Virus record (IMG/VR): IMGVR_UViG_3300023109_000011
Location: 34,113-98,112 of that record
DNA from: a virus
Strand: one strand, 5' to 3'
DNA length: 64,000 bases
Part shown: piece by piece, positions 14,475-57,778 of the stretch
How positions within the stretch are numbered: position 1 is the first letter of the stretch
Layout of the letters: every line of letters starts with the position of its first letter
Notes under the pieces: generated by a model
Seen by the model: only the letters and a program-made list of their open reading frames with translations
The model's database searches: none
Told to the model about the DNA's origin: nothing
Translations under genes and position numbers: made by a program

Positions 14475-14514
14475 ACGGTTCACTCTCCCCAGATTGGCGG
14501 TTTAAATTATTCAA

Positions 14515-35400: not shown

Positions 35401-38400
35401 TAGCATTTTGTGGAGTGTAAGTACCTGAGTAACCAAACTCTTTAACACAGTCAGCGGTAGCACTTACAAATGTGTGTACTTTATCTGTTCCTGCAGGACC
35501 AATGTAGCAAGTAAATGTAGTAGAAGATGTCGCAGTAATCTTGATCGGCTTACGATAAACTGGATCAGTTGGCCGTGGATGGGTAATTGAAACAGGGTTA
35601 CCACCTGCATCTGGGCATGTAAACGTAATGCAAGAATCTGCAAGTACAATTTCTTGGCCGGGCTGAAGATCATGATCACCAATTGTGCTAATCATCATTC
35701 CTGTTACAGGATCATAAGTTACGCCAGTTGGTGTATATGTCTTTCCGGTATTATTAACAATGTCAACAAGTTGACGGAACGAGAGATCTGCTTGAGTAGA
35801 TTCAGCATTACGTCCGACCGAAGTAACTTCAGAGATAGCATTAGCAACAGATGATACAAATGTATGTGGGAACAAGCCTGTTCCACCAGTACCTACATTC
35901 ATAGTAATTGTAGTTGCATCAACCTCGGTAACCAAACATGGCTTACGATAGAATGGGTGGTGAGCTGCTGGTGAAGTATGGTTAGTAGCACCACTTCCCA
36001 TGTCACAACTCATTGTAATACCGTTATCTGCAAACCAGACATAATCGCCAGGTTCTAAACTGTGAGTTCCTACCGTTGCAACAAAGATTCCAGTATTAGG
36101 ATCGTAAGTAGCATTGGATGGAGTAAACTGAGCACCAAACTCAACGCCAACATTGTCGGTAATTTCTTGTCGTGTATTAAACTGGAGATCTTCAATTGCT
36201 GCAACAGTCTGTGGCAGTTCATTAAGTATGGTTGACTCACCAGTTTTCTGACGATAAGCGATACCAGCTTGAATTGCGTTATAGTTACTACCGGTAACCA
36301 TGTCACGTTGTACAGCAGGTAAGATGTAATCTGTTACATCCCTACGGCAAGCGATGTTATCGTAATGGAAGTAGTTAGTATCGATATAATTCAATACCGA
36401 ATCTTGCATAAACTCTCGGTTAGCTTGAAGTAGCTTACGAGAATCTCGTCGAGCTTCCAAAATACCAGCGTCATCAGAGAATGTAATTTCAGCACCAAGT
36501 ACCGAGATAGCATTTGGTAAAGCTGATACGAAGGTGTGGGCTTTATCGACTGTTGCTACACCAGCATTAATTGTAATAGTGGTTGCACCAACATCTGTAA
36601 TTTCACATGGTGTGTTGTAGCATGGATCTGGACGACCTGCTCCACCCAATGCTCGTGGATGTGCGATTTGACCAATGCTTCCATCACCTTCACAAGCAAG
36701 AAGAATACTTTCTGGCTTGAATAGTATCTTATCACCTGGTTCTAAATTATGAGTACCGATGGTCATTATCATAACACCGGTAATGTGATCGTAATCTACA
36801 CCAGTAGGAGTAAATGTAGCACCGTTAGCTCGTAGTTGTGTAATAATTTCATCGAAAGCACCATCGACTCGAGCTGAACTAATGTAAGAGTTCGCATCAA
36901 GAATTTCGTTAGTACGATCTTTCAGGAATCGGTAAGCACCAATTGTTTCATTTCGTTGCTCACCTATAACCTTAGATGCAGATGCCATGTAGTATGCATT
37001 ACCGGCGGTTACTGCATTATAGTTTGTGTCAAGAAGCATGTCATTCTTAACTGCTGGCATGATGTAGTCAGTAGTATCTCTACGGCATGCAACACTATCA
37101 TATGAGTAGAACTGATCGTTATTGTCGATCCAGTTGGTCAACTCAGTTTGAATGAATGTTCTATTATCTTGGAGAAGTTCCCGAGCTGCAGTTTGTTCAA
37201 CAGATGTTGGTACCCAAGTAATTGGGTTAATGTTTTCTTCACCGTATTGAAGAACATTGTACAGTTCTTGCATCGAGGTATTTGCTCGTGCTACAATTGC
37301 TGGATCACCTTCGAAGAGATCTTGCACTCGAGCTTGCATGTACTCGTTAGCACCAAGAGTTTCTTCAAGCTGCTCGCCTGGGACTACATATGAAATTGGT
37401 GAACGGTAAGAAATACCTGCTAATCGACCCCAGTAGTTACTATCAAGAGCAATGTCATATCCAAGACCATCGAGGATAATCTTAGAATCTCGCTCACACT
37501 TATCAGCATCATATCCTTTATAACCCAATCCGCCCGAAGCAGTATTTGCAGTTATGAAGTCGACCATGTCGTCGATGATAAGTGGCTCATTTGCTTCGAT
37601 AGTGTCGGCAAATGCTGTGTTACCAAATATGTTAGCAGCGCTAGTAGACTTAGGAGCAAAGAACCTTGTGGTACCTTTTGCTCGCATTGAGATGTCACCG
37701 AACTGAGTACCTGAGTTGTTCAATGTCATTTGTCCGCCGTTCAAGGCGTAGAATGCAATACGTACGAAGATTGACAGAGAACCAATACCGTTTACACCAG
37801 CACCATCCCGTGCTACATAACCGATACCGTTCTGAGTACGAGGTGTGAAACCAAAACATAGTACATATGTATATAGTGAATCTGGATCTAGAACTCTTCG
37901 GTCTGCAAGTACACAACCACCACCTCGACCTACCAACCTGTTAGGGAAGTCGTCGATGCCGATGGATGCTACTGTTCCTGTTCCGCCTGATTCACATTGT
38001 ACGGTATCACCTACCGCAAAACCTCGATTGTTCTTAAGGTTTCGTACTCGAATCTTACGATTTTGGTCGACGTCACGATCAATACCCTGAGCTGCATCCA
38101 TGCTGTCATCCCAAGAGAGATAACCAACTGCACCAGATGAGAATGTAACTTCATCACCTTCTTGCCACAACGACAATGCAGGGTTAGCATTTTGTCCTGT
38201 CATGCCAACTTCAAGTGTAAACTCTCTACCAAGGTCAGCTAGTGTACCTTTGGTGTTGTATGGGTTAAGAGGTGGTTCAACATCAGAACGAACAAAGTTT
38301 GAAAGCTGAGTTGAGTCTCTCAAGTATGGAGAACGAAGTAACTTAGCGCCTGGTCGATAAGCAACCGCGAATCCACCTTCTGGGAAATCGAAGTTATCGA

Positions 38401-40099
38401 TCTTCCAGTTCATGTAAGAGAAGCCCTGTACATAACAACCAGAACCTACTAGAATCGCATTGTTATTTTCATAACCTGGAAGTGCTTCAATAACCGTGGC
38501 ATACTGACCAGATGTAGAAGTAACCGAACAATCATCCGGCAACATCAAGTTACCCTTGGTGTAATATGTTCCTGGCCCTGCAGAAATATGAACTGAGTTG
38601 TTTAAAGCATTTCGATCAAATGATCCACCAGCCTTTTCTAAACAAAGCTCAAACGCTCGTTCCATACTTTGAACTGGCTGTAACATAGTTCCTGGGTTGT
38701 CATCATTACCTGATGCAGCATCAACGTGAACTTTAAGAGCCTGTGCAGTACTCTTCGATACTTCGTCAAATAATTGACTGTAAGAAATTTGTTCTGTTTG
38801 ACCTGTCTTTTCGTTCTTAATAGCAAAGTAGCTATCTTGATCAAGAGGTGGCTCAAACTTATCATTGAGATCCATGTCAAAGTCGACAAGAGTAGAATCC
38901 TTAACGATACCATTGTCGAACGTTGACTTAGTAACATCACCACTGTCGAACGTTGATCTTGTTTGACTAAAGCCATCAGCACTTGAACTCGTGATGGTCA
39001 TGTTCTGAGCTACTACATTATCCATCGTTCCTGTAAAGGATGAATTAGTAATTTCAGAATTCTGAATTGTACCTTGGTCAATTGTAGTATTGGTAAAGAC
39101 GTTGTTATTGCCGGTACCATCAGAGAAGTCTGAGTTAATGATTTCAACATTATCAAGATCAGACTGAGTAATTGTAACGTTGTTTGCTGTTGAATCTTCA
39201 ATTGCGCCATCTGTAAACGTTGAATTAGCAATTTCTAAATTATCAGCAGTGCTATCGGTGATTGTAGAATCATCAATAGTAGAATTTGTAAGTACTACAT
39301 TATTACCAGTACCGTTATTAAATTCAGAATCAGTTATAACAACGTTGCTTGCAACCGAATCTTCAATTTCACCGTTCGTAAAGACAGAAGTATCAATGGT
39401 AGATCTGGTAAGTACTACGTTGTTGCCGGTTCCGTCATTAAACTGAGAATCAGTAATAACTACGTTATTTGCGGTAGAGTCGTTTAACTCAGAATTTGTA
39501 AGTACTACATTGTTACCGGTAGAGTCAAAGATCTCTCCATCAGTAAACTCGGAATTTGTTATTACAATATTGTTAGCAGTGGAATCTTCAATCGACCCAT
39601 CATTAAATTCAGAATTTGTTATTACAACATTGTTTGCTGTACTATCATTAAGTTCTGAATTCGTGAGTACAACATTATTACCGGTTGAATCATTAATCTC
39701 GCCGTCGTTGAACTCAGACTGAGTAATGATTACGTTGTTTGCTGTAGAGTCGTTAATCTCACCGATATTAAATTCGGATGAGGTAATGATTAAGTTATTA
39801 GCATCCGAGTTCGTAATGACAGTATCGTCAATCGTCCCTCGTTCAAAGTTAGTATCTTCGATGTCAGAATTGTCGATAATGACTCGATCAATGCGCAGGT
39901 CGTGGATGAACGCGCCGGAAATGTCTCCGCCGGTAATCGTGATCCGATCAAATACCTCGTACTGAATGGCCTGTACGAGTTCTTTACGAGTGATGTTTGA
40001 TGTGCCATCATCACCTTGTACCAGATTGACAATAACAAATAGATCTTCTGATCTAGTATTATCACCGGTAATCGGAGGTAATTCTGAAATCTTCGCCAT
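29402..40099 (-). CDS. Giant modular virion protein with beta-helix and 'HTFVSA' modules (3565 aa)
   Basis: Residues 1-55 form a head (MAKISELPPITGDNTRSEDL). Residues about 60-400 repeat 'STANNVVITNSEFNDG'-like units of about 20 residues, probably a parallel beta-helix. Residues about 455-590 (VHVDAASGNDDNPGT...YYTKGNL...GCYVQGFSY) resemble a pectate-lyase-like beta-helix. The rest mixes two module families: 11 copies, plus one degenerate, of a helical unit around 'CxRDxGYxIDAxSxDIxYGGN', and seven copies of a beta unit running 'YTPTNATYDPNTG...GDxVxFxPESIxFxC...HPFYRKP...TTITMNVGTGG...HTFVSA'. The C-terminus is unique and basic (SSVRKLARRASNSRASL). No S74 tail is present. A perfect late box lies just upstream. 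It is probably a very long fibre or tail-associated protein of marine T4-like type; polysaccharide binding or cleavage is possible but not shown. Confidence 0.9.
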   Translation of the reverse strand: MAKISELPPITGDNTRSEDLFVIVNLVQGDDGTSNITRKELVQAIQYEVFDRITITGGDISGAFIHDLRIDRVIIDNSDIEDTNFERGTIDDTVITNSDANNLIITSSEFNIGEINDSTANNVIITQSEFNDGEINDSTGNNVVLTNSELNDSTANNVVITNSEFNDGSIEDSTANNIVITNSEFTDGEIFDSTGNNVVLTNSELNDSTANNVVITDSQFNDGTGNNVVLTRSTIDTSVFTNGEIEDSVASNVVITDSEFNNGTGNNVVLTNSTIDDSTITDSTADNLEIANSTFTDGAIEDSTANNVTITQSDLDNVEIINSDFSDGTGNNNVFTNTTIDQGTIQNSEITNSSFTGTMDNVVAQNMTITSSSADGFSQTRSTFDSGDVTKSTFDNGIVKDSTLVDFDMDLNDKFEPPLDQDSYFAIKNEKTGQTEQISYSQLFDEVSKSTAQALKVHVDAASGNDDNPGTMLQPVQSMERAFELCLEKAGGSFDRNALNNSVHISAGPGTYYTKGNLMLPDDCSVTSTSGQYATVIEALPGYENNNAILVGSGCYVQGFSYMNWKIDNFDFPEGGFAVAYRPGAKLLRSPYLRDSTQLSNFVRSDVEPPLNPYNTKGTLADLGREFTLEVGMTGQNANPALSLWQEGDEVTFSSGAVGYLSWDDSMDAAQGIDRDVDQNRKIRVRNLKNNRGFAVGDTVQCESGGTGTVASIGIDDFPNRLVGRGGGCVLADRRVLDPDSLYTYVLCFGFTPRTQNGIGYVARDGAGVNGIGSLSIFVRIAFYALNGGQMTLNNSGTQFGDISMRAKGTTRFFAPKSTSAANIFGNTAFADTIEANEPLIIDDMVDFITANTASGGLGYKGYDADKCERDSKIILDGLGYDIALDSNYWGRLAGISYRSPISYVVPGEQLEETLGANEYMQARVQDLFEGDPAIVARANTSMQELYNVLQYGEENINPITWVPTSVEQTAARELLQDNRTFIQTELTNWIDNNDQFYSYDSVACRRDTTDYIMPAVKNDMLLDTNYNAVTAGNAYYMASASKVIGEQRNETIGAYRFLKDRTNEILDANSYISSARVDGAFDEIITQLRANGATFTPTGVDYDHITGVMIMTIGTHNLEPGDKILFKPESILLACEGDGSIGQIAHPRALGGAGRPDPCYNTPCEITDVGATTITINAGVATVDKAHTFVSALPNAISVLGAEITFSDDAGILEARRDSRKLLQANREFMQDSVLNYIDTNYFHYDNIACRRDVTDYILPAVQRDMVTGSNYNAIQAGIAYRQKTGESTILNELPQTVAAIEDLQFNTRQEITDNVGVEFGAQFTPSNATYDPNTGIFVATVGTHSLEPGDYVWFADNGITMSCDMGSGATNHTSPAAHHPFYRKPCLVTEVDATTITMNVGTGGTGLFPHTFVSSVANAISEVTSVGRNAESTQADLSFRQLVDIVNNTGKTYTPTGVTYDPVTGMMISTIGDHDLQPGQEIVLADSCITFTCPDAGGNPVSITHPRPTDPVYRKPIKITATSSTTFTCYIGPAGTDKVHTFVSATADCVKEFGYSGTYTPQNATYDPNTGVFVASIGKHNVQVGDYVEIKPESVVFSCDNGNGPEDHASPEQHHPFYKKPVLVTAVTTTSITMNVGAGGGYTGVHTFVSADVGAIIADPLVWTDPSSYLNYYTPTTATYDPATGVSVVTIPDHDLAIGDRIEFTPYSFTYTCSLDSNATEHQYPRVGDGNYKTAMEITNVAGNNITVNVGTGSGGTHTFVSVANDAVIKVTTNTAGQLAREQLQANRNMIQTEIMEYLDTQYFVFDGDKCSRDTGFIVDAARRSVATGSNYPAIYMGLGYRIGTVGADKVVNDQLTETVGAINYLKSEVSEELTGTALTRSNDAFDEIIDILSNGSGNADTIVWGTNAVDVAHANARVALQTNKTFIQAETVAHIADTYPNLTYDTAKCLRDTGYMIDAISWDIQHGSNAGAVNFARLYFENAMAVLPEDQVVPTVRTWEYIAEVCYSVIRAIAITPTTGNVQTQDVSGGDLGIILGNKGRDLVTVVTKTIEADTLDWLPSYVEPTIEAGFETAVARMDGKTENLQTDVIEHIINVFNGLPYNKAKCFRDIGHIIDSVSKDIEYGGNASTIESAAFYFSRDDETSGDYEQLRSVNVLPLEVKGQMRDTAEEYPTANVSGLRTLINVLPEIQRVPTRLAFERLADVAEKVVTETAITPSSANVPAQDTSGTAAPAATGTAVHDLIQAVAALVDDKTADYIPKATNPTVDPNRTVARKQIQMNKDFIAEDVVEYLRERYYTFDGEKCYRDMAILINAVKRDVLTDSNFNAVFNGLAYRIGTKLADNVITEQLTETVSAIEYTRDAAVAAVTDPTAKTKTLNSFNELIDIMTNGETAADNIVFGPSSSRGLNGINAREQLKNNKAFMQAEITAYLADNYPSYVYDVAKCERDVGYLTDCVIFDTYHSGNSAVRGNAKLYFENAVSVLPVDQQAKTAETFIHIAEVAKYIVQDQDVDGLGLKSSSNSATQNRDSGSAGLAVGNEVERLFSVVANAISNNSLESMPALEEPNSASNAYVDEFKTAFTELEAVIPSVQDGLYAHLAEYFEILPYSEDKCRRDTKYILDGISHDIQYGGNAATLGNAKLYFDNAVNTLPLEQREASKFAFTHMSELVEKIVQRQEIPLRPLDRFGVSTVAYDPVSGEMVTTTLAPHTLSLGDYIVIEKEGITFECNNPAVEISHPRVTDPVYRKPLRVSAVTATTFTVNVEPAGGYTQAHSFVSAKANAIIKVSNPYRQELGNVAGNPMIATRAKALGMIITNVVETGSYATFPTRVDPLQTWQSPTVIAGKEAVEDAVPALADNVLTYLTAVQNGLGFPGAKCRRDIGYLIDAVSHDVQYGGNFASRQSAGIYFENGVSVLPADTRKQTADIYDYLGLVMSQVVQENDVSQFTTYTPTNATYDPASGVFTATIGSNNFKVGDLVWFAPESIVFSCNMGSGNQNHRSPESHHPYYNRGCPITAVEGTTITMNVGTGGTGQVAHTFVTADADSLANGPYQQFLGTPGTATEAAAAQSLIGIVEDVIRANSTDALPGLEGPDLSWVNSELIGAAEQIEDNVDHLANDLVHFINTEFNALDYNRAKCFRDVGYLLDAFSYDLNYGGNIASRWNADFYFWNNEYRVPENQREATAKSYRQLGVICKDIVLGKYAGQVAKGELGTQVEADKVEKLANVFYLTQINKDTKYLPAKQEPDYAYAGDKFTGAQFIIGENKINLAADTVRYVSAEYGFINLPLTRRDASNLLQAIANDFKYEDGTEVNSPSYTGSIAVGAQNAIRTFTSSFFDYKGQHAFPVFNSTTRGLKYQGSLQGPVGSGILASVTGQKPNHAYIVATNMAVSHYEGDIYYWDPTINDWRYDGPNNTELLDSFVGAWERMRDYMISNLSPDAAHSAMIAGLFNDCLIDNVVRPETLIFGSLVESIAHQFNGASAGVNRNALPLNFRNLGQPISAIASVLNEDGGRIRWSGADELNNQYFARGLRINGRTGRIEGRPFTSSVRKLARRASNSRASL
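34785..36810 (-). repeat. Five consecutive 'YTPTxATYDP...HTFVSA' modules
   Basis: Five of seven copies in the 3565-residue protein lie here, the second after a helical module and the last four nearly tandem; the other two copies are at about 31745-32030 and 30945-31240. Each copy is about 95-105 residues and contains two conserved elements, 'HPFYRKPxxIT' and 'TITMNVGTGG'. Confidence 0.85.
38890..39900 (-). repeat. About 20-residue beta-helix-like repeats in the 3565-aa protein
   Basis: Units such as 'STANNVVITNSEFNDG' and 'STGNNVVLTNSELND' recur through residues about 60-400. The regular Asn-Asn-Val-hydrophobic-Thr-(Asn/Asp)-Ser spacing suggests a parallel beta-helix stalk. Confidence 0.8.
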
Positions 40100-47033: not shown

Positions 47034-48662
47034 TTAAAGTTCCAGTACAAACTTAAATTCTTCTCTAGAAAGGTCCGTTCTCGCAAGTGGGAAAAAGTTT
47101 TCCATGAAGTACACTTCGCCTGAGCGTTGTTGGTAGTTCGACATCACGATGTTGTCTTCTACTGGACTATTTATAGTAATTGTTTGACCTGTTATATTTC
47201 TAAGCGGTAAAGTAAGATCTAATGAAGTGTCACCGTCTCCTGTTGCTGGATTGTTAGGATAAGGTCCCATGTATTCAGCTAAATAGAAGGTATTATTATC
47301 TTCATCAACCTCGTGTACTACTCCTGAGAATGTTACTATATTACCACTACTTAGTTGTGTTAACACTGTATTTGCAGATACCTTATCTATATCATCAGTT
47401 GTAATTGCAATACGGTTATCAAAAATAACTGGAGTGGTATCATGAAAAGTTGGTTCTTTTACAATTCCTACCCCTGTGTAAGTATTGCTATCACCAATTT
47501 GTGTATTATCATCTGCTGTAATATAAGCATAAAGCATAAAGTGCTTACATTTAAATTCGTCAATAAAGTTATATCCGTGGCCGCCATCAGGTGTTAGCCT
47601 AGCTCGTAAAATACAACGAACTTCATCACTTCCAGATTGCCCTGGTCTAAAGTCAACTCGAGGATCTGTAACAGTAATTGTAATATTATGATAGCCGGTG
47701 CCTGGCTCAATTAATTGAATGCTTCGAATTTGGCTATCGACAATATTAGGTATTCCAATAGCACCTGTACCATCACCTTCAATCTTAACTTCTGGTAAGA
47801 TTTTCCAAGAAGCGTTTTGAGTAACACCAGCTGCAACTGGATTTGCTGCACCTGTAATTAACTCACCACCAACTCGTATCTGAGCATTACCTGTATTCTT
47901 ATTATAGAAGTAATAAGTGATTTTAAATATTCTTGTTGTTACACCATCAGGATTCGTTGTTATTAGATATTGCCCAGTATAATAATTTGTTGTTGGACTT
48001 ACTACAGTTGAAGGATCAACAATAATAATACCAGTCGAATATGGACTACCTACTAAAGCACCACGCTCTTCTTTATATCCAAAGTTATCATTAGGATTAA
48101 CAACTAATATGTCAGAGACTTGGCTACCTGTACTCGTAGGAGGATCGATAACATAATCGTCAACTAATGGAATATAACCAACAGCGTTGTATGCTTCGAA
48201 TTGAAGGTCGGTAAGCTTATACATAAACTTCCAAACATACCCATCAGCTGTTTCATATATTTGATTAGGAGTTGTTTCAGCCCAGTTAGGTGGGTTTGAA
48301 ACCTCAGTTCGATCGTTATTGTTTAAGCATTTATAAACTCGATAGTCTCCAGTGTCATTATCGTTTGGACCGACAACGGCATAGAACTTAACACCGGTAA
48401 GATCAACTTGGTCGTCATACTCTTCGAATACTAATCCTTTCTGCCAAGGATAATACTTAATCATGTAATGCATATCGTTAGACGATATTTTCTTAGCAAA
48501 CAGTGTTTTCTCTAAAAATTCATTTTTTGAAAATAAAGAATCCGAAGGATCGAACGGGCCGATTGACGACACAAAAAGATAGTAATCTTCGCTTGCTCTT
48601 GATTGTTCAAGGAAGAGTCTATTCAAGTCACTTTTTAGATTGGTGCTTAGAATCTCTGGCAT
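47034..48662 (-). CDS. 8: Baseplate wedge protein gp8-like (542 aa)
   Basis: T4 gp8 is a dimeric baseplate wedge component of 334 residues; this version has 542. Two segments support the call. Residues 108-150 (YRVYKCLNNN...YETADGYVWKFMYKL) match the T4 'YRCL...GDGYVWEYLFEI' region. The end (SGEVYFMENFFPLARTDLSR, EEFKFVLEL; 514-542) matches the T4 C-terminus 'SGEMIYMENRPPI.......INILFTF'. Insertions in the middle (around residues 175-420) explain the extra length. It acts in assembling the baseplate wedge with gp7, gp10 and gp6 in T4; no gp10 is recognised here. A late-type box 32 bases upstream of the ATG suggests it starts its own transcript. The start is ATG at 48662. Confidence 0.85.
   Translation of the reverse strand: MPEILSTNLKSDLNRLFLEQSRASEDYYLFVSSIGPFDPSDSLFSKNEFLEKTLFAKKISSNDMHYMIKYYPWQKGLVFEEYDDQVDLTGVKFYAVVGPNDNDTGDYRVYKCLNNNDRTEVSNPPNWAETTPNQIYETADGYVWKFMYKLTDLQFEAYNAVGYIPLVDDYVIDPPTSTGSQVSDILVVNPNDNFGYKEERGALVGSPYSTGIIIVDPSTVVSPTTNYYTGQYLITTNPDGVTTRIFKITYYFYNKNTGNAQIRVGGELITGAANPVAAGVTQNASWKILPEVKIEGDGTGAIGIPNIVDSQIRSIQLIEPGTGYHNITITVTDPRVDFRPGQSGSDEVRCILRARLTPDGGHGYNFIDEFKCKHFMLYAYITADDNTQIGDSNTYTGVGIVKEPTFHDTTPVIFDNRIAITTDDIDKVSANTVLTQLSSGNIVTFSGVVHEVDEDNNTFYLAEYMGPYPNNPATGDGDTSLDLTLPLRNITGQTITINSPVEDNIVMSNYQQRSGEVYFMENFFPLARTDLSREEFKFVLEL
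47169..47176 (-). promoter_or_regulatory. Possible internal late promoter box (TATAAATA) within gp8
   Basis: A perfect TATAAATA on the minus strand lies inside the gp8 coding region, about 150 bases before the ATG of the 1821-residue gene, which has no box in its own 15-base spacer. Chance occurrence in AT-rich coding DNA is possible. Confidence 0.35.
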
Positions 48663-48709: not shown

Positions 48710-51151
48710 CTATACCTCAATTGTCTTCTTTCTTCTAGGAAATACATTTCCACTCGCAGGCCTTTCTTTATGTCGAGGTGCAAATGCTGCGCCATGATTC
48801 ATGTACTTTCCCGGTGAATTACGAACAGCCCACGGAACATTAATCATTTGAGTAGTATTCCCGTGTAAATCAGTAATGTCACTGCCGCCGTTTTTAAAAT
48901 CGTTTGCGTAAATGCTATAAACATCTGAGCTGGCCCCATCTAGGTACTGGACAACTTTTTCACCGGCCGACCCTTGTGTAGTATCGGTTTTTGTGTTATA
49001 TGCAGTTATGATCCAATTGGTGCTTGAGAAGTCAACGCCCCGTACAATATTTTTGCTATCATTTTGTATTTGCTCTTTAAGTTGAGCTATGCTTGGATAT
49101 GTTCCGCGCTTCAAGTAAAAGTCATCTATCATTAAGGCTGCAGCCCCAGCAGCCCTAGGTCCTGCACAACTCGTTCCACCAAATCCTGACCATGTATAAC
49201 CATTTTGATCAGTAGTTTGCATTGAGCCAACTGGGTAACTACTAAATGTGTTAGACCCCGGAGCTGCAATGTCTATGCCCGGTCCTCTATCACTAAAACC
49301 ATCTAAATAAGGATACAACCGGGATGTAGTCGCCGCTGCAACTGTGATCTCGTTTGAATAGCATCCTCTAAAAGAGCGGTTAGGATAAAATTGTTCATAA
49401 CCAGAACCGAGCGGGCCTTCTCCTTCATTAACAGCAGTTAAATTAGCTAAAGTATATCGGCTAGATGAAATACCTATTGATATGTAACTTTCCCCTGCAG
49501 CTACACTTAACTGGTTATGCCAATGCTGATGTTCTGGACCTACCTCACCTGCTATTGCATAATTGCCAGCACTTTGAAAATAATATATTCCGCCGACAGT
49601 ATCGTAGTTATCTAAGATAGTGTCAAATGCTGTATCTCGAAGGTCACGGTTATATGGTATCGTCCACTTAGCTGTACTGTCAGAAGGATCTACTATTAAA
49701 CGAGGAGCGATATTAGCATTTGCAAAAGGTCTTAAATCACCTTCCCAGCTAGTTGAACTCCACGAAGTGGCTACTATCGCACCTATCATTCCAGAGTGTA
49801 ATGTACACCTATACTTAAGAAGAGTTGAGGTGTTTGCAGGCACTGTAATAGTAACCGTAGCAGTTCCTTGACCTGTAATCCACGAGTCAGTCCTTACTTC
49901 TAAGGTCGAGTGGTCAATAATTTCGATAGGATGAGAACCTACACTACTTGCGTCTAAAACAACCGTGTCACCGGCTTTTAAAACTAGCGTGGGATTATCT
50001 TGACTAGCTAAAACGCTGCCAGTTGGTCGGTAAGTACCTCGGTCATATCCTTCAAAACGATAAGCACTTGATCCGTTAGCAGTCACTTTATAGTTAAATG
50101 TTGCTAGTTGTGGATCACCTCGGTTAATTGTTATAGGCGAGTCAATGGGATTTCCCAGCGAATTGTTTGGCCCATCAGGATAATACGTTATAGCTTTAAC
50201 TTTATCTACTGGGATACCACCATTCATCCCATCAGTTGTATAAATCCAAGCTCCAGTTACAACAGTTGCATTACGTATACCAGTGTTAGGATTAACAGGT
50301 TTACTTTGATGCCACGCTAATACTGCATTCATTGCTTCAGCAACACCGTCGCCCAAATATACGACTCTTAAAGATGCGTTAAAAGCCCAACCAGAGGCTT
50401 TACCACCTGTAGCACTTAATACACCAATCGCGTGAGCGCTAAAATATTCAGATCCGTTATCAACTTGGTTAAAGCTCACTAAGTTAGGTTCGTAGTCTTC
50501 CCAGTTCATTGGAACAAACCTTGATGTACCCGAGTTAGCTCCCAATCCGCAAAAGTCTACATGTGGACTATTGTGCCAGCTATCATAAGAGGTTGTTGGT
50601 GATCCTGCTTCAACAGCAACAATATCTACATATTCACCTGCGTAGTTTTGTATTACTTGACCGTCGAAAAAAGGGTCTTCAGTCGTCGAATTAATCGGTA
50701 AGCTTCGTGAGACTCCTTCTGCATTAGAGTGATATCCGTAACCAGTCGAGCCGGAAAGGATAAAATTTGATGTTTCATTTGCTGTAGGGGTTGCTCCGCC
50801 AGTATACAATAATGCCATTGGAGAATAATCTAAACCATCCGCAACCCCGAGACCAGCGTTATCCCAATCATTAGCAACTAATCTTTGTGGAGTAGTTCCA
50901 TCTCCTCTTTCATAATTAGGTGACCCGATTGTATTATAAGAAGCGTCTTCAACTTGTAATTCTGGTACTACATCTCGGACCTTTTCACTTGCTTTAAGCG
51001 TAGCAACCTCTTCGTCTGTTAGCATCATTGAAATCAAACTATCTAATAAACTTAGATTAGATTTGACCTGCATTCCTGCAGCTTCATTTGCTAGAAACTC
51101 TGGTTCGTTAGTTCCTTTTACGAGAACAACTGTATGCTTATGCTTTTCCAT
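48710..51151 (-). CDS. Subtilisin-like (S8) virion protein with inserted cupredoxin-like domain (813 aa)
   Basis: Residues 1-70 resemble an I9-type propeptide (MMLTDEEVATLKASEKVRDV). The S8 core has His240 (EYFSAHAIGVLSATGG), the oxyanion Asn530 (FQSAGNYA) and Ser661 in GFGGTSCAGPRAAGAAAL. At the usual Asp position the strand reads VDIVAVEAGSP, so Glu181 takes the place of Asp; Asp176 is nearby. Between His240 and Asn530 lies a cupredoxin-like domain (about residues 350-462), with His407 (SHPIEI), Cys449, His452 and Met455 (YRCTLHSGMIGA) as potential type-1 copper ligands. Subtilase-domain virion proteins occur in T4-like cyanophages, but their role is not settled. It may process virion proteins or host surface proteins, or be an inactive scaffold. 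It lies one base after the fibre-like gene with the other cupredoxin-like domain. Confidence 0.88.
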   Translation of the reverse strand: MEKHKHTVVLVKGTNEPEFLANEAAGMQVKSNLSLLDSLISMMLTDEEVATLKASEKVRDVVPELQVEDASYNTIGSPNYERGDGTTPQRLVANDWDNAGLGVADGLDYSPMALLYTGGATPTANETSNFILSGSTGYGYHSNAEGVSRSLPINSTTEDPFFDGQVIQNYAGEYVDIVAVEAGSPTTSYDSWHNSPHVDFCGLGANSGTSRFVPMNWEDYEPNLVSFNQVDNGSEYFSAHAIGVLSATGGKASGWAFNASLRVVYLGDGVAEAMNAVLAWHQSKPVNPNTGIRNATVVTGAWIYTTDGMNGGIPVDKVKAITYYPDGPNNSLGNPIDSPITINRGDPQLATFNYKVTANGSSAYRFEGYDRGTYRPTGSVLASQDNPTLVLKAGDTVVLDASSVGSHPIEIIDHSTLEVRTDSWITGQGTATVTITVPANTSTLLKYRCTLHSGMIGAIVATSWSSTSWEGDLRPFANANIAPRLIVDPSDSTAKWTIPYNRDLRDTAFDTILDNYDTVGGIYYFQSAGNYAIAGEVGPEHQHWHNQLSVAAGESYISIGISSSRYTLANLTAVNEGEGPLGSGYEQFYPNRSFRGCYSNEITVAAATTSRLYPYLDGFSDRGPGIDIAAPGSNTFSSYPVGSMQTTDQNGYTWSGFGGTSCAGPRAAGAAALMIDDFYLKRGTYPSIAQLKEQIQNDSKNIVRGVDFSSTNWIITAYNTKTDTTQGSAGEKVVQYLDGASSDVYSIYANDFKNGGSDITDLHGNTTQMINVPWAVRNSPGKYMNHGAAFAPRHKERPASGNVFPRRKKTIEV

Positions 51152-51152
51152 A

Positions 51153-52922
51153 TTAGCTCTCTAATACTAACCCTGTTAAGGATACGGTAATTGTTGCAGT
51201 TCCTGAGTCTATGTTTGTAACAGTAACCGGAACAGTTGTTTCTGAATCATCAACATATCCGTAAATTGCCGGAGTTACTTTAAACTCAGTTGTTCCTGAT
51301 TGAGTCGCAATAAACTCGGCAATAACGCCTCCACCTTCTGGTGGATCTTCACCTTGAGTTCGAGAAGCATCGGCTGTTCGAGATGCTGTATCACTATAGA
51401 TACGAACCCAGCAAGGTGCATCTACTTGGCATGTATACAAGGCATACGAAATACCTAAGTTTGCGAATGATAAGTTAGTACTCGATCCAGCGTTGAGGCT
51501 AGTTGCTTGTTCGGATTCGGTAGCTCGAGATAGTGAACCACCTCCGCCGCCGCCGCTGTTACCGGCCGCAGGTTCAATTACAATAGTACCAACCATACTC
51601 GAGTGTGCTTGACATATGTACCTATAGTTACCAGAAATACCTGCTGGAATTTTCCAGAATAAAGCGCCACCTATTCCTGCGTTTGCAGCTGAACCTTCGT
51701 AATAGACTCCTAAATCAAGTGCAACTAGTCCTTCATTATAATCTGCACCTGCCGCAGTTTGAATTACGAATGGGTGTACAGCACCACCTGCACCAGTTAA
51801 ATCAAATCCAACTGTCGTTCCTGCTTTTACATAAATTGTTGGGTTATCAGCTGTACCATATTGGTCAAAACGATATGAAGAAGAACCATTATTAGTAACC
51901 TTTAATACAGTGGTAGCATTTAAGAAACTGTTTTCAAATAATGCTTTATCTGAAACACCGGCAGGCTGTTCACTAATGTTTAAATAAGTTGGAGTGAACG
52001 TTACGTTTCTCCAAGTCCCATCACTACCGAAGTATTTTAAAATATCATCAGATTGTGGATTTGTAATTGTGGTATCAGTAATATCAGCCATAGCAGTTGA
52101 ACCACCGCCACCTGATAATGCGGCCCATGCAAAATCTGAACCATCCCACTGTAATACTTGGTTTGCACTTGCACTACTTACGTTTAGGTGAGCACTTACT
52201 GCGTTATCATTATATGCACCACCACCACTTTGTGAAATCCAAGAATAGTCAGTACCGTTCCAACTTAATATATCGTTTTCGCTAGCGCCACTTACATTGA
52301 TATGAGCATCAACATCGCTATCAGCATAAGATCCACCGCCACCAGAGATATCATCGAATACCAAACCATCAGCATTACTGTTAACAACCAATGCTTGGCC
52401 GGCCGTGCCAAACGAACTTGGTGTATCAGATAAACCGATTATAGTGCTTGAACCACCGCCACCACTTTGAGCTACCCAAGTATATGTACCATCTGCATTT
52501 GATTTAAGTACATAATCAACGGTTTCACTATTAGTAATATTGGTTGAGTAAACGATGTTGTTTAAAGGATCGGAATAGTTTGTTACTGCACCAGCTGAAG
52601 TGTCTGTTAACACTTTACGCCATTCACCGTGAGCGTAATACAATGCGCCTGTATCGTGAGCATGCCCAATAGATCCGTGATAAGTACTTGGGCTTAGAGC
52701 AAGTAATGATTCTTCTGTATCGTGCAAGAATGAAATTTTATGAGGTTTTCCAACAAGATCGAATGCTCCATTTTGATCGAAAAGAACTTCTGCATTTGTA
52801 GAACTACCTAATGCGAAATATAATTCCGTGAAGTTATCGTTTGCTTTATCGAATGCATTCCTTAACGGATCACCTGTTCCGTCGTTCGCTGATGCACCGA
52901 TATTAATTATCTGCTTGGCCAT
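51153..52922 (-). CDS. Fibre-like virion protein with cupredoxin-like domain (589 aa)
   Basis: The N-terminus KQIINIGASANDGTGDPLRN and AFDKANDNFTELY is the standard start of many marine phage fibre or baseplate proteins ('I..G...NDGTGD.LR.AF.K.N.NF.ELY'). Repeated 'ILxWNGTDYSWISQSGGG' units with Gly-rich linkers follow. Residues about 340-455 form a plastocyanin-like domain: 'SSYRFDQYG', 'NPTIYVKAGTTVGFDL', His383 (VHPFVIQT) and Cys437, His440, Met443 in YRYICQAHSSMVGTIVIEP. The C-x2-H-x2-M spacing matches amicyanin-type blue-copper sites. The C-terminal 110 residues are beta-rich. A late-type box lies 33 bases upstream, so this gene probably begins a transcript. Structural role probable; copper binding is inferred from the ligands. 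Confidence 0.85.
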   Translation of the reverse strand: MAKQIINIGASANDGTGDPLRNAFDKANDNFTELYFALGSSTNAEVLFDQNGAFDLVGKPHKISFLHDTEESLLALSPSTYHGSIGHAHDTGALYYAHGEWRKVLTDTSAGAVTNYSDPLNNIVYSTNITNSETVDYVLKSNADGTYTWVAQSGGGGSSTIIGLSDTPSSFGTAGQALVVNSNADGLVFDDISGGGGSYADSDVDAHINVSGASENDILSWNGTDYSWISQSGGGAYNDNAVSAHLNVSSASANQVLQWDGSDFAWAALSGGGGSTAMADITDTTITNPQSDDILKYFGSDGTWRNVTFTPTYLNISEQPAGVSDKALFENSFLNATTVLKVTNNGSSSYRFDQYGTADNPTIYVKAGTTVGFDLTGAGGAVHPFVIQTAAGADYNEGLVALDLGVYYEGSAANAGIGGALFWKIPAGISGNYRYICQAHSSMVGTIVIEPAAGNSGGGGGGSLSRATESEQATSLNAGSSTNLSFANLGISYALYTCQVDAPCWVRIYSDTASRTADASRTQGEDPPEGGGVIAEFIATQSGTTEFKVTPAIYGYVDDSETTVPVTVTNIDSGTATITVSLTGLVLES

Positions 52923-52954: not shown

Positions 52955-52962
52955 TATTTATT
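52955..52962 (-). promoter_or_regulatory. Late promoter-like box (AATAAATA) before the 589-aa gene
   Basis: The minus strand reads GTTAATAAATATTTAG across the end of the gp7-like gene. The box is 33 bases before the ATG of the fibre-like cupredoxin protein. Confidence 0.6.
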
Positions 52963-55852
52963 AACTAGTTGGTTCGTGGTCAACTGTAATGAAAGAACTA
53001 TCAACAGTAAAGTTCGTTACCGATGCTTCAAGGCTGTCAGTATTCGCTGTGTCTAATGGCGAACCTCTTCCGTCGTCATTGAATCGTCGGAAGAATCGAG
53101 TTCTTGCATTATTCGGTACTTCAACCTTATAAACAAAGTCACCGAATAGTTTTGTTCCTGCTAAGTGTACATTTTCTTTAAGTGTACTTTCATACATACT
53201 TAATGGCAGTGTTGACTTGATTAAGTAAGAATAGTCTTGATAGAAATCGCTATCTTGAATACGTACACCAGCATTAAAGTATTTAAACTGCGTAACATAT
53301 TCGTATAACTCAGGACTCAAATCATAAAAGCCCTGTTGCTTCATGCTAGGTGCAACAATATTATTCCATCTATTTAATTGCTCAACCGTACCTCCGCCAG
53401 CAACGATCCGCTCATAAATTGTAACATCATCAGGAGTAATTGTACCATCTTGATCTGCATCTAAATAAGGAAATCCGTCTGAACTTATAGTTGCTCCCCA
53501 GTTCGCGAAGTCTTCATCCCAGAGATACTGAGTTTGATATGGAATCCATAGAACATCTTCTTGACCTGCATACCAAGTCTGACTCTTTAAGTTAGGTGCA
53601 ACAATTTCATTCCATCTTTGAGTAACTGCTTCAGCAGCTGTACCAGAAGCAAGAAGCTGGAATTGTATTAATCCAGGACCATTTAGCGGAAATCCTTGCT
53701 TAGTCATATCATATATTGCGTACCCATCAGAAGCAGTGCTTTCCATCCATGCTGCCCATTGAGGCGCTAGATCTGGGAATATGTTTACGGGATTATTACC
53801 AAAGATAATTTGAAATCCACCAATATTCCATACATTACCAATAGGAAGAATTGTTGTCTCACCAACAATAGCAGCTTGCGTTTGTTCTACAAAATCCGAT
53901 GTAGGTAAAATAGGATTTTCTATCGTAATTTGTTGTTGTTCGTATCCATTTAGATGTGAAGTAAAATCTGCCCAGTAACCTTCTGTAAAACCTTGTGTGT
54001 TTTGTTCAATAATACCGTAAGCCTTACGGTTACCGTCTTCATCTTGTAATTCACCTACAGTATTTGCGACATATCCAAAGCCGGAGTTAATAATCTCGAC
54101 TTTACTAATTTGTCCAATAGCAAACTCTGTTTCAGTTTCTACGATTGCGTTATCACCATAGTCTTTGCTTTCATAATCTGTTTGAACTGCATCAACACTG
54201 AAACGATCTCCGTTTGCTTTTTGAACATCATTAACACCATCAAACCCGTAATAAGCAAATGGTGTAATACTAATTGTTCCCTTCGTAGTATCAATTGCAT
54301 TTACTTCAGCACTCTTTCCAGTAGAGTTTTCCGTAATCAATTCACCAATACTAAATACACCTGCATCAGCCGGTGTTTCAAACCGTATTATTTGTCCTTT
54401 ACGTCCAAGATTCTTAATCACCTGATCTTGAGCCCGAGCAAAAACCTGTGTAGTATAATTCTCACCTGAAGCAATATTACGGAATAGTTCGATACGACCA
54501 ATTGTAATTGGTGTTAAGTCAAATGCATCTTCAAGCGGAGTAGTAATCGTTACCGGACTTGCAGTACCTGACATTGGAGTAACTGCCCCATAATCAGCAG
54601 CATCGAGAGTTGTTGTAAGATAAGGCTGGATTGGATCGGTAATAACTGATATTGAAACTGTGTTTTTAATGTCAGCAATAACACTCGTACCTAAACCGTC
54701 GTCAGCATATTGTGTTCCTGGCGAGCTGACATTGTAAGGTGTAACTAAGTCAATATCAATTGGATTGCTTGGGTCCCTGTCTATTGCAAATATGTTTCGA
54801 GTATTTTCGAATGCAATAGGGAAACCACCGCGAATAGTTACGATGTTCGTTACATATATTCCTACGGCGTTTTCTGTTTGACCTAATACTATACCTTCGT
54901 TGTTCTGAGTATCTCTTACTCGTTCGTATAATACAAATTCTAAGCCGGGATTATCGAGAATAAATGTTTGTTGTGAAACTAAAAGTTTCGTATTTTCAAC
55001 ACTGTATCCATAACCGCCATAAATGAGTTCGTAACTAATCTCTCCTGAAGTACTATCTGAAAGACCTTTAACAACTGCTTTACCACCGCGACCTTGATCT
55101 GATACAACATTTAAAATATCACCAACGCGATTGTTTGTTGCCCGATCTTTATTAGTGTCAACTTCAAAAGCATTTAATGATCCATTGACTCGACCAAAGT
55201 CAACAAGCTCGCCATCGATACTTGAAAGAACGTCATCATCCTTTTGGAAGTTACCTTGAACTGCATCAATGTAAATAATAGGAGTGCGCGTACCTTCGAT
55301 TAAAATAAAGTTAATGCGGCTTACAGCTGCCTTAGCACCGGAAACTGATCCTTGAATATTTTTTGAAATTAAATCTGCGTAGGTATATTTTTTACCGAGC
55401 GACGATACAAAGGAATTATTATTAGAATATAGCTGAAGATAAACACCACGCTTCCATTTTGAATTCGATATCTTTAACATCTTTTCTGCAGGATACGTAA
55501 TATCAATCTCGTACTCATTATAGAATATCGAGAAGAACGTTTCAATACCTGCAGGTGTACCTTTTCGACGATAAAGATCTAAAATATTTTTTACTAGAAA
55601 TGGTACACTGTTTTCTTTGAACGGTAAATCGGCTAGGAACTTTTTGTGGAAAAATACGAGTAATTCTTTAACAGTAGAGTCTACATCTTTATAATCAAAC
55701 AACCTTCGATTAACGTGGTGACTTTGATTTGTAGCTTCCTCTAGAAACTTATAATAATATCTAGTCAGCGCAACGAGTTCTGGACCATCTTGTTTATAGA
55801 TATCCGGAAATTGTTGATCGATGAAAAACGATATATTCTTTTCTATTTCCAT
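52961..55852 (-). CDS. 7: Baseplate wedge protein gp7-like (963 aa)
   Basis: Residues 22-48 (DGPELVALTRYYYKFLEEAT) and 80-125 (KNILDLYRRKGTPAGIETFF, SIFYNEYEIDITYPAE) match the C-terminal domain of T4 gp7, in which 'STKGIEASYKFLF.VLYNEEVEIE' is recognisable. T4 gp7 is 1032 residues; here that module is at the N-terminus and the rest is different. Near the C-terminus two related segments of about 55-60 residues ('...AVTQRWNEIVAPNLKSQTWY' and '...QLNRWNNIVAPSMKQQGFY') are repeated, and the second holds an EF-hand or dockerin-like loop (DADQDGTITPDD, residues 798-809). It follows gp6 by 15 bases, which fits T4 order. It is probably a central baseplate wedge subunit. Confidence 0.85.
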   Translation of the reverse strand: MEIEKNISFFIDQQFPDIYKQDGPELVALTRYYYKFLEEATNQSHHVNRRLFDYKDVDSTVKELLVFFHKKFLADLPFKENSVPFLVKNILDLYRRKGTPAGIETFFSIFYNEYEIDITYPAEKMLKISNSKWKRGVYLQLYSNNNSFVSSLGKKYTYADLISKNIQGSVSGAKAAVSRINFILIEGTRTPIIYIDAVQGNFQKDDDVLSSIDGELVDFGRVNGSLNAFEVDTNKDRATNNRVGDILNVVSDQGRGGKAVVKGLSDSTSGEISYELIYGGYGYSVENTKLLVSQQTFILDNPGLEFVLYERVRDTQNNEGIVLGQTENAVGIYVTNIVTIRGGFPIAFENTRNIFAIDRDPSNPIDIDLVTPYNVSSPGTQYADDGLGTSVIADIKNTVSISVITDPIQPYLTTTLDAADYGAVTPMSGTASPVTITTPLEDAFDLTPITIGRIELFRNIASGENYTTQVFARAQDQVIKNLGRKGQIIRFETPADAGVFSIGELITENSTGKSAEVNAIDTTKGTISITPFAYYGFDGVNDVQKANGDRFSVDAVQTDYESKDYGDNAIVETETEFAIGQISKVEIINSGFGYVANTVGELQDEDGNRKAYGIIEQNTQGFTEGYWADFTSHLNGYEQQQITIENPILPTSDFVEQTQAAIVGETTILPIGNVWNIGGFQIIFGNNPVNIFPDLAPQWAAWMESTASDGYAIYDMTKQGFPLNGPGLIQFQLLASGTAAEAVTQRWNEIVAPNLKSQTWYAGQEDVLWIPYQTQYLWDEDFANWGATISSDGFPYLDADQDGTITPDDVTIYERIVAGGGTVEQLNRWNNIVAPSMKQQGFYDLSPELYEYVTQFKYFNAGVRIQDSDFYQDYSYLIKSTLPLSMYESTLKENVHLAGTKLFGDFVYKVEVPNNARTRFFRRFNDDGRGSPLDTANTDSLEASVTNFTVDSSFITVDHEPTS

Positions 55853-55867
55853 TAGGAATTATCTCTC

Positions 55868-57778
55868 TTAATAACCGCCGCCACTGGAAGATGAACTTCC
55901 GCTGGATGATCCTGTTGTTTGCAGAGTTCCAATAGTCGAACTTGAAGAAGTTCCAGTTGCCATGGCTGATTCTTCCAATACCGAAACAAATATATCTTCA
56001 TCTCTTAACAGGAATACTCGACCCTGAGGAGATTTAACATCACTACTCTTAATGTTTGCTTTAATCTTAATTGCACTACCAGTATATTCTTCAACAATAA
56101 AGTTTGACAATACAACGTTACCTGTGTCATAATTGACCTTGCCTGCTGTTGGGTTTACAACCTGTGGATCAGTCGCGTCATCAGTGACTGTCATAATATT
56201 ACCCATACCATCGTCCTGCAAATAAACACATACACCATTTACATCAAATGGAGTACTTGTAACCGCGGGCTTATAACCACTAAATCCGTTAGCAGCTCTA
56301 AAAGGATATGGCCTAACCAGCTGGGCTTCAAAGTTAAATGAAGGAGCGGTTCGTACATTTAGAATAGGAGCATACTCAATGTAAGGTGTGACTATAATTG
56401 ATGTACTTTGAATAGCAGTATCGATACTATCAATCTGACTTGCTAATCTACTCTTACGTAAAGAAGTATTAAAGTTCTCAAGATTATTATCTGAATAAGC
56501 TTGTACTATTTGACGTATAGATGATTCAAGTTGCGAAGCATTCTTTTCTGTTTCTTTTAATGTGAATATAGTATCAACGCTAAGCTCAGCGTAAATAAAC
56601 TTAGTTTGTACAAATACAGGCTCAATACCTAGAGGACTCTTTTCTGATAGGTAAGCAATAAATGCATTACTCAATGTTGAGCTAATTAACTGAGTAGTAC
56701 TATCTAAGTAAACTGAAATAGCAACCTTACCAAACTGAGGTGGATCGAGATCTTCACCACCATAAGCTGCAACTGCTTTAATTTCTGGAAATTTTTGCTG
56801 CAATAAGATTTCGTAATCTTTAGTTGTGCAAGCTCGTTCTTGAATTTGCAATGCCTTAGGTGCGAAGTAACGAATGCTCTCAATACTTTCTCGTTCTTCA
56901 CCACCGGCTGCGGCCGTAGTTGTTTGACATTCGATAGTAGCGTTTTCTAAAAATCCGGCTGAGAATTGACTAGCACCATTTGATTCATTGCCTGAACAAA
57001 TACGATACCTTACACGGACATCTTCGAATTCTTGAGGTTGTAAACCAAACTCGTTCTTACCAAAGTAAATCGAATAACGATCATCGTAATAAGGTTCTAT
57101 ATAGAATACTCGATCCGTGGGTTTTACACCATAAATCGTAGTTGCTCGTGTAAAGACGTTTTGATCTTCAGTTGCTTCAGCATCAACGAATACTACAATA
57201 CTGTTTGTATCAACTTCGTTGTTTGAAAGATAGACTCGTAATACTCCATCAGCATCAATAATAAATCCTTCTCGCTGGAAGCTCGTTAACATCTGACCTT
57301 CGAAAATATCTACATTTTCTGCGATGAAAGTTACTTCACGTGTAATTGGATCAATATTTTTACGAGCAACATATGTTTGTTCAGTGACAAAATTAAATGT
57401 TTCACCCTGGTAGCTTGAACTAAAGCTGCTATAGGTTGGAATCGTAATGGTTGAGTTTTCTTCATCAGGCGCTGTAATTACAAGCCTTATCGTTGCTTTA
57501 GCTGACCTGCGAGATCTTGGAATATAATTTAATTCTTTAGCATGGGAAACAACGGAGTTCTTAATGACGGCCGAGTCAAGAAACATTTCGTTGATTGCCA
57601 TATTGGTATAGAAGTTATTTTGGAACGTGTTAAAAGCGAGTACATCGAGCAAAGCAGCCATGTTACTACCTTCAAAGTTGTAATCTTTGAATTGTGCCTG
57701 TTGCGCTAAATACGTTTTTAACTGACTTTTAATACCTTCAAAGTCAAGTTCCGTAATTGGAGTTTTTGGATTGGCCAT
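55868..57778 (-). CDS. 6: Baseplate wedge protein gp6
   Basis: This 636-residue protein is a clear gp6. The start (PITELDFEGIKSQLKTYLAQ, FKDYNFEGSNMAALLDVLAF) and NNFYTNMAINEMFLDSAVIK with SVVSHAKELNYIPRSRRSAK are the most conserved part of the family; T4 gp6 has 660 residues. gp6 dimers form the inner ring of the baseplate that links the wedges and rearranges when the sheath contracts. The central 'YGGEDLDPPQFGKVAISVYL' segment is also family-like. The C-terminus carries an unusual Ser/Gly/Thr-rich tail of about 40 residues (TGTSSSSTIGT, SSGSSSSSGGG), not typical of T4. It begins two bases after gp25 ends, as in T4-like marine phages. Confidence 0.95.
   Translation of the reverse strand: MANPKTPITELDFEGIKSQLKTYLAQQAQFKDYNFEGSNMAALLDVLAFNTFQNNFYTNMAINEMFLDSAVIKNSVVSHAKELNYIPRSRRSAKATIRLVITAPDEENSTITIPTYSSFSSSYQGETFNFVTEQTYVARKNIDPITREVTFIAENVDIFEGQMLTSFQREGFIIDADGVLRVYLSNNEVDTNSIVVFVDAEATEDQNVFTRATTIYGVKPTDRVFYIEPYYDDRYSIYFGKNEFGLQPQEFEDVRVRYRICSGNESNGASQFSAGFLENATIECQTTTAAAGGEERESIESIRYFAPKALQIQERACTTKDYEILLQQKFPEIKAVAAYGGEDLDPPQFGKVAISVYLDSTTQLISSTLSNAFIAYLSEKSPLGIEPVFVQTKFIYAELSVDTIFTLKETEKNASQLESSIRQIVQAYSDNNLENFNTSLRKSRLASQIDSIDTAIQSTSIIVTPYIEYAPILNVRTAPSFNFEAQLVRPYPFRAANGFSGYKPAVTSTPFDVNGVCVYLQDDGMGNIMTVTDDATDPQVVNPTAGKVNYDTGNVVLSNFIVEEYTGSAIKIKANIKSSDVKSPQGRVFLLRDEDIFVSVLEESAMATGTSSSSTIGTLQTTGSSSGSSSSSGGGY

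Follow-up and report, generated by a model that had tools for sequence, protein, structure and literature searches.

Gene content of the baseplate block

The window, meaning the whole 64,000-nucleotide stretch that was analysed, is part of a 98-kb viral record from a marine T4-like myovirus. Its minus strand encodes a run of baseplate genes in the order gp6, a 963-aa protein, a 589-aa gp9/gp10-like protein, an 813-aa protein, a 542-aa wedge protein and an 1821-aa protein. The genes at issue and the two cupredoxin domains that they encode are the following.

55868..57778, minus strand: gp6-like baseplate wedge protein (phrog_219, E = 8.8e-139), which anchors the syntenic block
52961..55852, minus strand: 963-aa baseplate wedge protein, upstream (phrog_17744, E = 4.9e-90)
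51153..52922, minus strand: 589-aa gp9/gp10-like baseplate gene with cupredoxin domain B (PF07880, PHROG_677)
51576..51905, minus strand: cupredoxin domain B, residues 340-449 of the 589-aa protein (HMM 95 bits; homology to A)
48710..51151, minus strand: 813-aa pro-subtilisin-like protein with an inserted cupredoxin (PF00082; predicted structure)
49772..50095, minus strand: cupredoxin domain A, residues 353-460 of the 813-aa protein (homology to B; HMM 99 bits)
47034..48662, minus strand: 542-aa baseplate wedge protein downstream of the subtilase (phrog_438, E = 1.1e-47), conserved in the block by synteny

The closest isolates by gp6 are the Sinorhizobium phages phiN3 and phiM12 (37-38%), not cyanophages. 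The 589-aa protein matches T4_gp9_10_N (PF07880) at 25.5 bits against a cut-off of 25, and its residues 1-451 match PHROG_677, annotated as 'baseplate wedge tail fiber protein connector' (E = 4.7e-42). It also resembles T4 gp10 (phmmer, 5.7e-4). The gp9/gp10 N-terminal domain and the baseplate synteny together place this protein among the gp9/gp10-like proteins. PHROG_677 is the gp9-type connector of cyanomyoviruses (T4-like GC 398) and ends in the same cupredoxin, with all 33 tested copies matching, whereas the 589-aa protein starts with a T4 gp9/gp10 N-terminus and has one further domain at its C-terminus. The gp9 annotations in the phage records examined make no mention of copper. From the synteny it is plausible that the 589-aa and 813-aa proteins share one assembly.

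The 813-aa protein is a subtilisin-fold relative

The initial annotation called the 813-aa protein subtilisin-like, and both sequence and predicted structure agree. PF00082 matches residues 516-677 (E = 9.9e-10, 38.6 bits against a cut-off of 21.8), and the whole-protein model (mean pLDDT 70.7, pTM 0.77) aligns with pro-subtilisins in VIA-align over 330-350 residues with Z scores of 26-27.3. The protein thus has the subtilisin fold of peptidase family S8. Its propeptide-like region and catalytic positions are as follows.

50957..51151, minus strand: N-terminal propeptide-like (I9-type) domain, residues about 1-65 (predicted structure)
50609..50611, minus strand: Glu181, where S8 peptidases have the catalytic Asp (of 118 relatives, 81 have Asp and 37 Glu)
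50432..50434, minus strand: His240, catalytic His position (118/118 relatives)
49562..49564, minus strand: Asn530, oxyanion-hole Asn position (118/118 relatives)
49169..49171, minus strand: Ser661, catalytic Ser position (118/118 relatives)

Residues 1 to about 65 are modelled as a confident beta-alpha-beta pattern (pLDDT about 90). In the model they look like an I9-type propeptide, because the chains of pro-Tk-subtilisin and pro-PCSK9 align from residue 1-3 of the 813-aa protein onward. A Pfam sequence search of the protein returned no I9 propeptide match.

After removal of the inserts, the 118 aligned relatives show two catalytic sets, Asp-His-Asn-Ser (81) and Glu-His-Asn-Ser (37). Conservation of the Ser is partly due to selection, since three of the five scans that collected the relatives searched for the Ser block; the other catalytic positions were not search patterns. 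The Glu forms make up a whole clade and require one change on the S8 tree. With Glu181, His240 and Ser661, the window protein departs from the Asp-His-Ser triad of S8, and we therefore regard it as a subtilisin-fold relative with a variant triad rather than a textbook S8 peptidase. Members of the Glu-type clade possibly use a Glu-His-Ser triad. The subtilase part has probably been maintained as a protease, or as a protease-like binder, with a role at the cell surface or in maturation of the tail.

T4-like cyanophages also encode S8 peptidases; PMC3037559 lists GC 292 of S-SSM7, with PF00082, and T4-GC518 of P-HM1 and P-HM2. The S-SSM7 peptidase resembles the window protein in its subtilase fold and in its position beside a gp9-type gene. 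The two differ in that the S-SSM7 type lacks an insert and has the Asp-His-Ser triad, whereas a cupredoxin interrupts the window protein and its catalytic Asp position is occupied by Glu.

Two homologous cupredoxin domains in neighbouring genes

The 813-aa protein had been proposed to hold a second copy of the metal-site domain of its neighbour. Alignment of the two domains had been set beforehand as the test of this idea, and by blastp domains A and B are 34% identical over 120 columns (54 bits, E = 1e-15), homologous far beyond the C-x2-H-x2-M motif. The repeated ligand set thus reflects a true second domain. The opening strand said to be common to both is present and aligned, as 'GSSAYRFE' in A and 'GSSSYRFD' in B. 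Each domain is detected by a profile built from both together with the copies of other phages, and a search of the whole 98-kb record found A and B as the only two copies. Judged from these alignments, the two neighbouring genes carry homologous cupredoxin-like domains that are distantly related copies. The interval first assigned to domain A, 49789-49933, covers its ligand-bearing half; the full domain is wider, from about 49772 to 50095. On an S8 alignment stripped of inserts, it enters the loop that connects the substrate-strand block to the oxyanion-Asn block.

Searched against the PDB, a profile of 33 diverse phage copies gave top-ranking hits to cupredoxin-type molecules only, namely copper nitrite reductase (4.4e-7), plastocyanin (5.2e-6), amicyanin and rusticyanin. 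Pfam Copper-bind is matched weakly by 22 of the 33 copies. By sequence relation over the domain, the phage copies are cupredoxins, and they share with plastocyanin, amicyanin and the type-1 domain of CuNiR (PF00127/PF13473) the type-1 ligand set His...Cys-x2-His-x2-Met and, by the profile match (E 4e-7 to 5e-6), the sequence signature of the fold. They differ from these in being internal or C-terminal modules of baseplate proteins rather than stand-alone secreted carriers, and in that one phage lineage is circularly permuted and domain A lies below Pfam detection. Domain A alone finds no cupredoxin in a Pfam search, as would be expected if the C-x2-H-x2-M motif had arisen by chance; homology over the length of the domain and conservation in dozens of phages exclude this reading, to which we assign a vanishingly small probability.

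Beta strands are predicted over residues 351-462 in the whole-protein model and in a permuted copy; residues 360-384 of domain A have low prediction confidence. Fold searches were run with whole models, and subtilisins filled their result lists.

The predicted type-1 copper site

Four residues of domain A form the predicted copper site.

49931..49933, minus strand: His407, first predicted type-1 Cu ligand (H column invariant, 100% of 261 copies)
49805..49807, minus strand: Cys449, predicted Cu thiolate ligand (99% of 239 copies)
49796..49798, minus strand: His452, second predicted His ligand (99% of 239 copies)
49787..49789, minus strand: Met455, predicted axial ligand (Met 89%, Gln 10% in relatives)

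All four lie in the 813-aa ORF where the initial annotation had placed them, their codons spanning 49787-49933. The corresponding residues of domain B are His383, Cys437, His440 and Met443. Their order and spacing, His, Cys, His and then Met or Gln, are those of cupredoxins. Gln is a natural axial ligand known from stellacyanin-type cupredoxins, and type-1 copper is normally buried, not bridging.

The columns that never vary in the 33 copies (Tyr12, His55, Pro56, Tyr95, Cys97, His100 and Met103 in domain A numbering) include the type-1 ligand set. Among 41 copies with less than 70% mutual identity, the first His is present in every one. Cys and the second His are kept in all 25 of these copies that lie outside subtilases, with Met in 23 and Gln in two; of the 16 copies inside subtilases, six are permuted, with Cys, the second His and Met lying at the front, and one, a degenerate second copy in L280, has lost these residues. 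The ligands stay constant while the rest of the domain drops to about 30-40% identity. The type-1 ligand set is essentially invariant across the phage copies, and the domains presumably bind copper. A 1040-aa subtilase elsewhere (L280:6748-9867) has two tandem cupredoxins near its N-terminus, the second of which is degenerate and lacks Cys, His and Met.

The same conservation bears on whether the domain could be a purely structural beta-sandwich that decorates or spaces the protein and retains its copper site as a relic. These tail proteins commonly have Gly/Ser-rich linkers and beta-rich repeats beside the domain, and its loss and gain seem to be tolerated. Against this, His, Cys, His and Met or Gln are kept in 99-100% of copies whose remaining sequence has diverged to about 35% identity. 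Because the ligand set is conserved while the rest diverges, we disfavour the relic reading and rate it as improbable.

Pairing of subtilase and cupredoxin in related phages

Five scans of viral contigs together with named phages yielded 281 subtilase loci, or 122 non-redundant loci at 90%; these contigs were chosen by subtilase patterns, which defines the scope of the following counts. The cupredoxin occurs only in a nearby gene within 600 bases and not in the subtilase at 46 of the 122 loci, only inside the subtilase at 16 and in both at four (the window, L245, L250 and L280). Neither the subtilase nor its neighbours carry it at 41 loci, and 15 are cut by contig ends. About one third of the subtilase loci have no cupredoxin inside or flanking, so the subtilase does not need it. 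Whether the pair seen in the window recurs in other phages had been raised at the outset, and it does: the domain is found in 54 of 231 genes flanking the subtilase and in 6 of 361 genes two to four positions away (OR 18, p = 6e-18). Raw counts also suggested an either/or rule, with at least one cupredoxin per pair and mutual exclusion, and this was gone in independent phylogenetic pairs (median p 1). Metal-dependent docking of the two proteins on each other, which the initial annotation had raised as a possible shared function, is supported by none of these results.

Named phages show the pairing in several forms. In S-SSM7, the PF00082 gene is followed by a gp9 with a cupredoxin, and in S-SCSM2R a peptidase S8 is followed by a gp9-like gene annotated PetE. 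AG-345-L05 is a further independent phage with the pairing. AG-345-F15 has the insert in the subtilase, and the gp9-like gene that follows is without a cupredoxin. Altogether 321 phage records, nearly all of cyanophages, hold the domain, mostly in proteins annotated as gp9 baseplate/tail-fibre connector. The S-SCSM2R gene (L009:3833-4339) encodes a gp9-like baseplate protein with a cupredoxin, and its PetE label probably mistakes a virion protein for a photosynthesis gene product. Two cupredoxin domains occur within one neighbour protein in L122:9018-9950 and in the upstream 1152-codon ORF of L168.

The full type-1 ligand set, a phage copy annotated PetE and the nearest solved structures, which are those of electron carriers and nitrite reductases, would be compatible with electron transfer during infection by a virion-borne plastocyanin. 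We consider this very unlikely. The domain is embedded in baseplate proteins, and cyanophages such as S-SSM7 have a separate petE gene family (PMC3037559). The plastocyanin encoded by petE, an auxiliary metabolic gene (T4-GC225), is also a cupredoxin but has a small gene of its own, whereas domains A and B are internal to the 813-aa and 589-aa proteins, which are encoded by virion genes, and the gp6 of their phage has its closest matches in Sinorhizobium phages.

Repeated insertion or loss, and permutation

Mapped on the stripped subtilase alignment, the cupredoxin inserts at about four different sites. It lies N-terminal to the catalytic part in L280, between the Asp and His blocks in the S-CAM1 type, in the loop that precedes the oxyanion Asn in the window, L249-L258, L007/L092/L095 and the second copy of L190/L197/L202/L204, and near the C-terminus in L238 and L245. 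On a subtilase tree calculated after removal of the inserts, the loop site alone needs four changes and the presence of any insert six (eight with more rows).

Copies of the S-CAM1 type are circularly permuted, with the Cys-x2-His-x2-Met strand first and the half with the first His last. With the halves reordered canonically for the tree, they form one clade (support 100/98), and for most of its length a permuted copy is modelled at a confidence of about 80-91. Permuted cupredoxins were seen in the subtilases of L005:4080-6335 (S-CAM1), L178, L188, L194 and L206, and of L190/L197/L202/L204. Some phages with a permuted cupredoxin have it twice in the subtilase, at two different sites. In the open-access literature, a search for naturally permuted cupredoxins brought up only a paper on Ig-fold numbering.

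The block of gp6, 963-aa protein, gp9/10, S8, 542-aa and 1821-aa proteins recurs in relatives and shows every cupredoxin state. The domain is in S8 only in L249, L251, L253 and near-copies, L252 and L238, and also in L258, whose neighbour is truncated; in gp9/10 only in L232, L235, L239, L241 and L243; and in both in the window, L250 and L245. L236 has it in neither, and carries instead a C-terminal cupredoxin (residues 908-1001) in its homologue of the 963-aa protein (L236:1907-4912). In L250 and L253 the C-terminal flanks of gp9/10 are nearly identical, with the domain present in one and absent from the other; so clean a difference is direct evidence that the module was gained or lost recently. 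By these comparisons, the cupredoxin is repeatedly gained or lost at several positions of the gene block. The spread of the domain, which the initial annotation had offered as one explanation of the pair, is well supported by the alignment beyond the motif, the recurring pairing and the several sites of entry into the subtilase. In L243, the downstream 542-aa wedge gene is split into two ORFs of 348 and 186 codons (L243:7393-8953), reflecting a frameshift or a sequencing error.

That domain A is a recent tandem copy of B is weakly rejected (A and B forced as sisters, p-AU 0.034). By blast, domain A is closest to gp9-type copies of other phages; a single origin with the same-site S8 copy of L249/L250 gives a p-AU of 0.36. 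The domain tree behind these values is short and poorly resolved, and the inserted copy of the window is a long branch in it. A single genome scan with domain A as query, made to find a cellular donor, returned only a 54-residue Sphingobium match.

The insertion sites also bear on whether the cupredoxin acts on the subtilase itself, as an exosite or regulator beside the active-site cleft that would select substrates or gate the enzyme, perhaps by copper or redox state. Two recurrent sites flank catalytic blocks (Asp-His, and substrate strand-oxyanion Asn), and all 118 relatives conserve the catalytic positions. We rate such a role as unlikely: the same domain sits in adjacent genes without being in the protease as well as at the far C-terminus (L238, L245), and it occurs in hundreds of gp9 proteins from phages most of which yielded no such subtilase.

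A putative copper-stabilised module of the baseplate rim

We are confident of the anatomy, a baseplate pro-subtilisin-like protein with an inserted type-1 (blue) copper cupredoxin. Both proteins would belong to the rim of the baseplate, the attachment region of fibres or receptor-binding parts. There the cupredoxin, a compact copper-stabilised beta-sandwich, could serve as an exchangeable binding or docking module whose binding face is locked by copper. Intragenic recombination between phages would move it among neighbouring rim proteins. We put forward the binding or docking role tentatively, as a possibility somewhat short of even. Taken as a whole, a copper-stabilised, recombining binding module of the rim is the explanation that we favour, by a little over an even chance.

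The metal-loaded domain could also be the receptor-binding part. Type VI secretion systems are built like contractile phage tails. A metal-loaded domain might bind an outer-membrane receptor for copper uptake or handling and so mimic copper for host entry; there is precedent in azurin, a cupredoxin that is secreted by a type VI system and docks directly on the TonB transporter OprC (PMC6907878). The location in gp9/gp10-like rim proteins, metal ligands more conserved than all else and a fast exchange among tail genes that is typical of receptor-binding parts are in keeping with such mimicry. We nevertheless consider it doubtful, as hundreds of cyanomyovirus records from different host strains contain the domain, a distribution which a structural role fits better than a host-range determinant. 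The broader version, in which marine T4-like phages use loaded blue-copper sites of the baseplate, in a copper mimicry directed at the host's receptors for copper uptake or cupredoxin docking, to attach or to trigger contraction, seems to us slightly more doubtful still. If true, it would be the copper counterpart of the Ferrojan-horse idea for iron, with a module shuffled among rim proteins including a subtilase.

In the open-access literature, covered mainly through titles and abstracts, we found no description of cupredoxin domains in phage virions. In hundreds of sequenced ocean phages, a baseplate protein preserves almost without change a metal site that is usually associated with respiration and photosynthesis. 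The recurrent insertions at different sites of the subtilase, with one lineage permuted, offer a natural record of a folded domain invading positions in an assembly.

The same strand run of the window also includes two very large ORFs, at 2520-14483 (3987 aa) and 29402-40099 (3565 aa).
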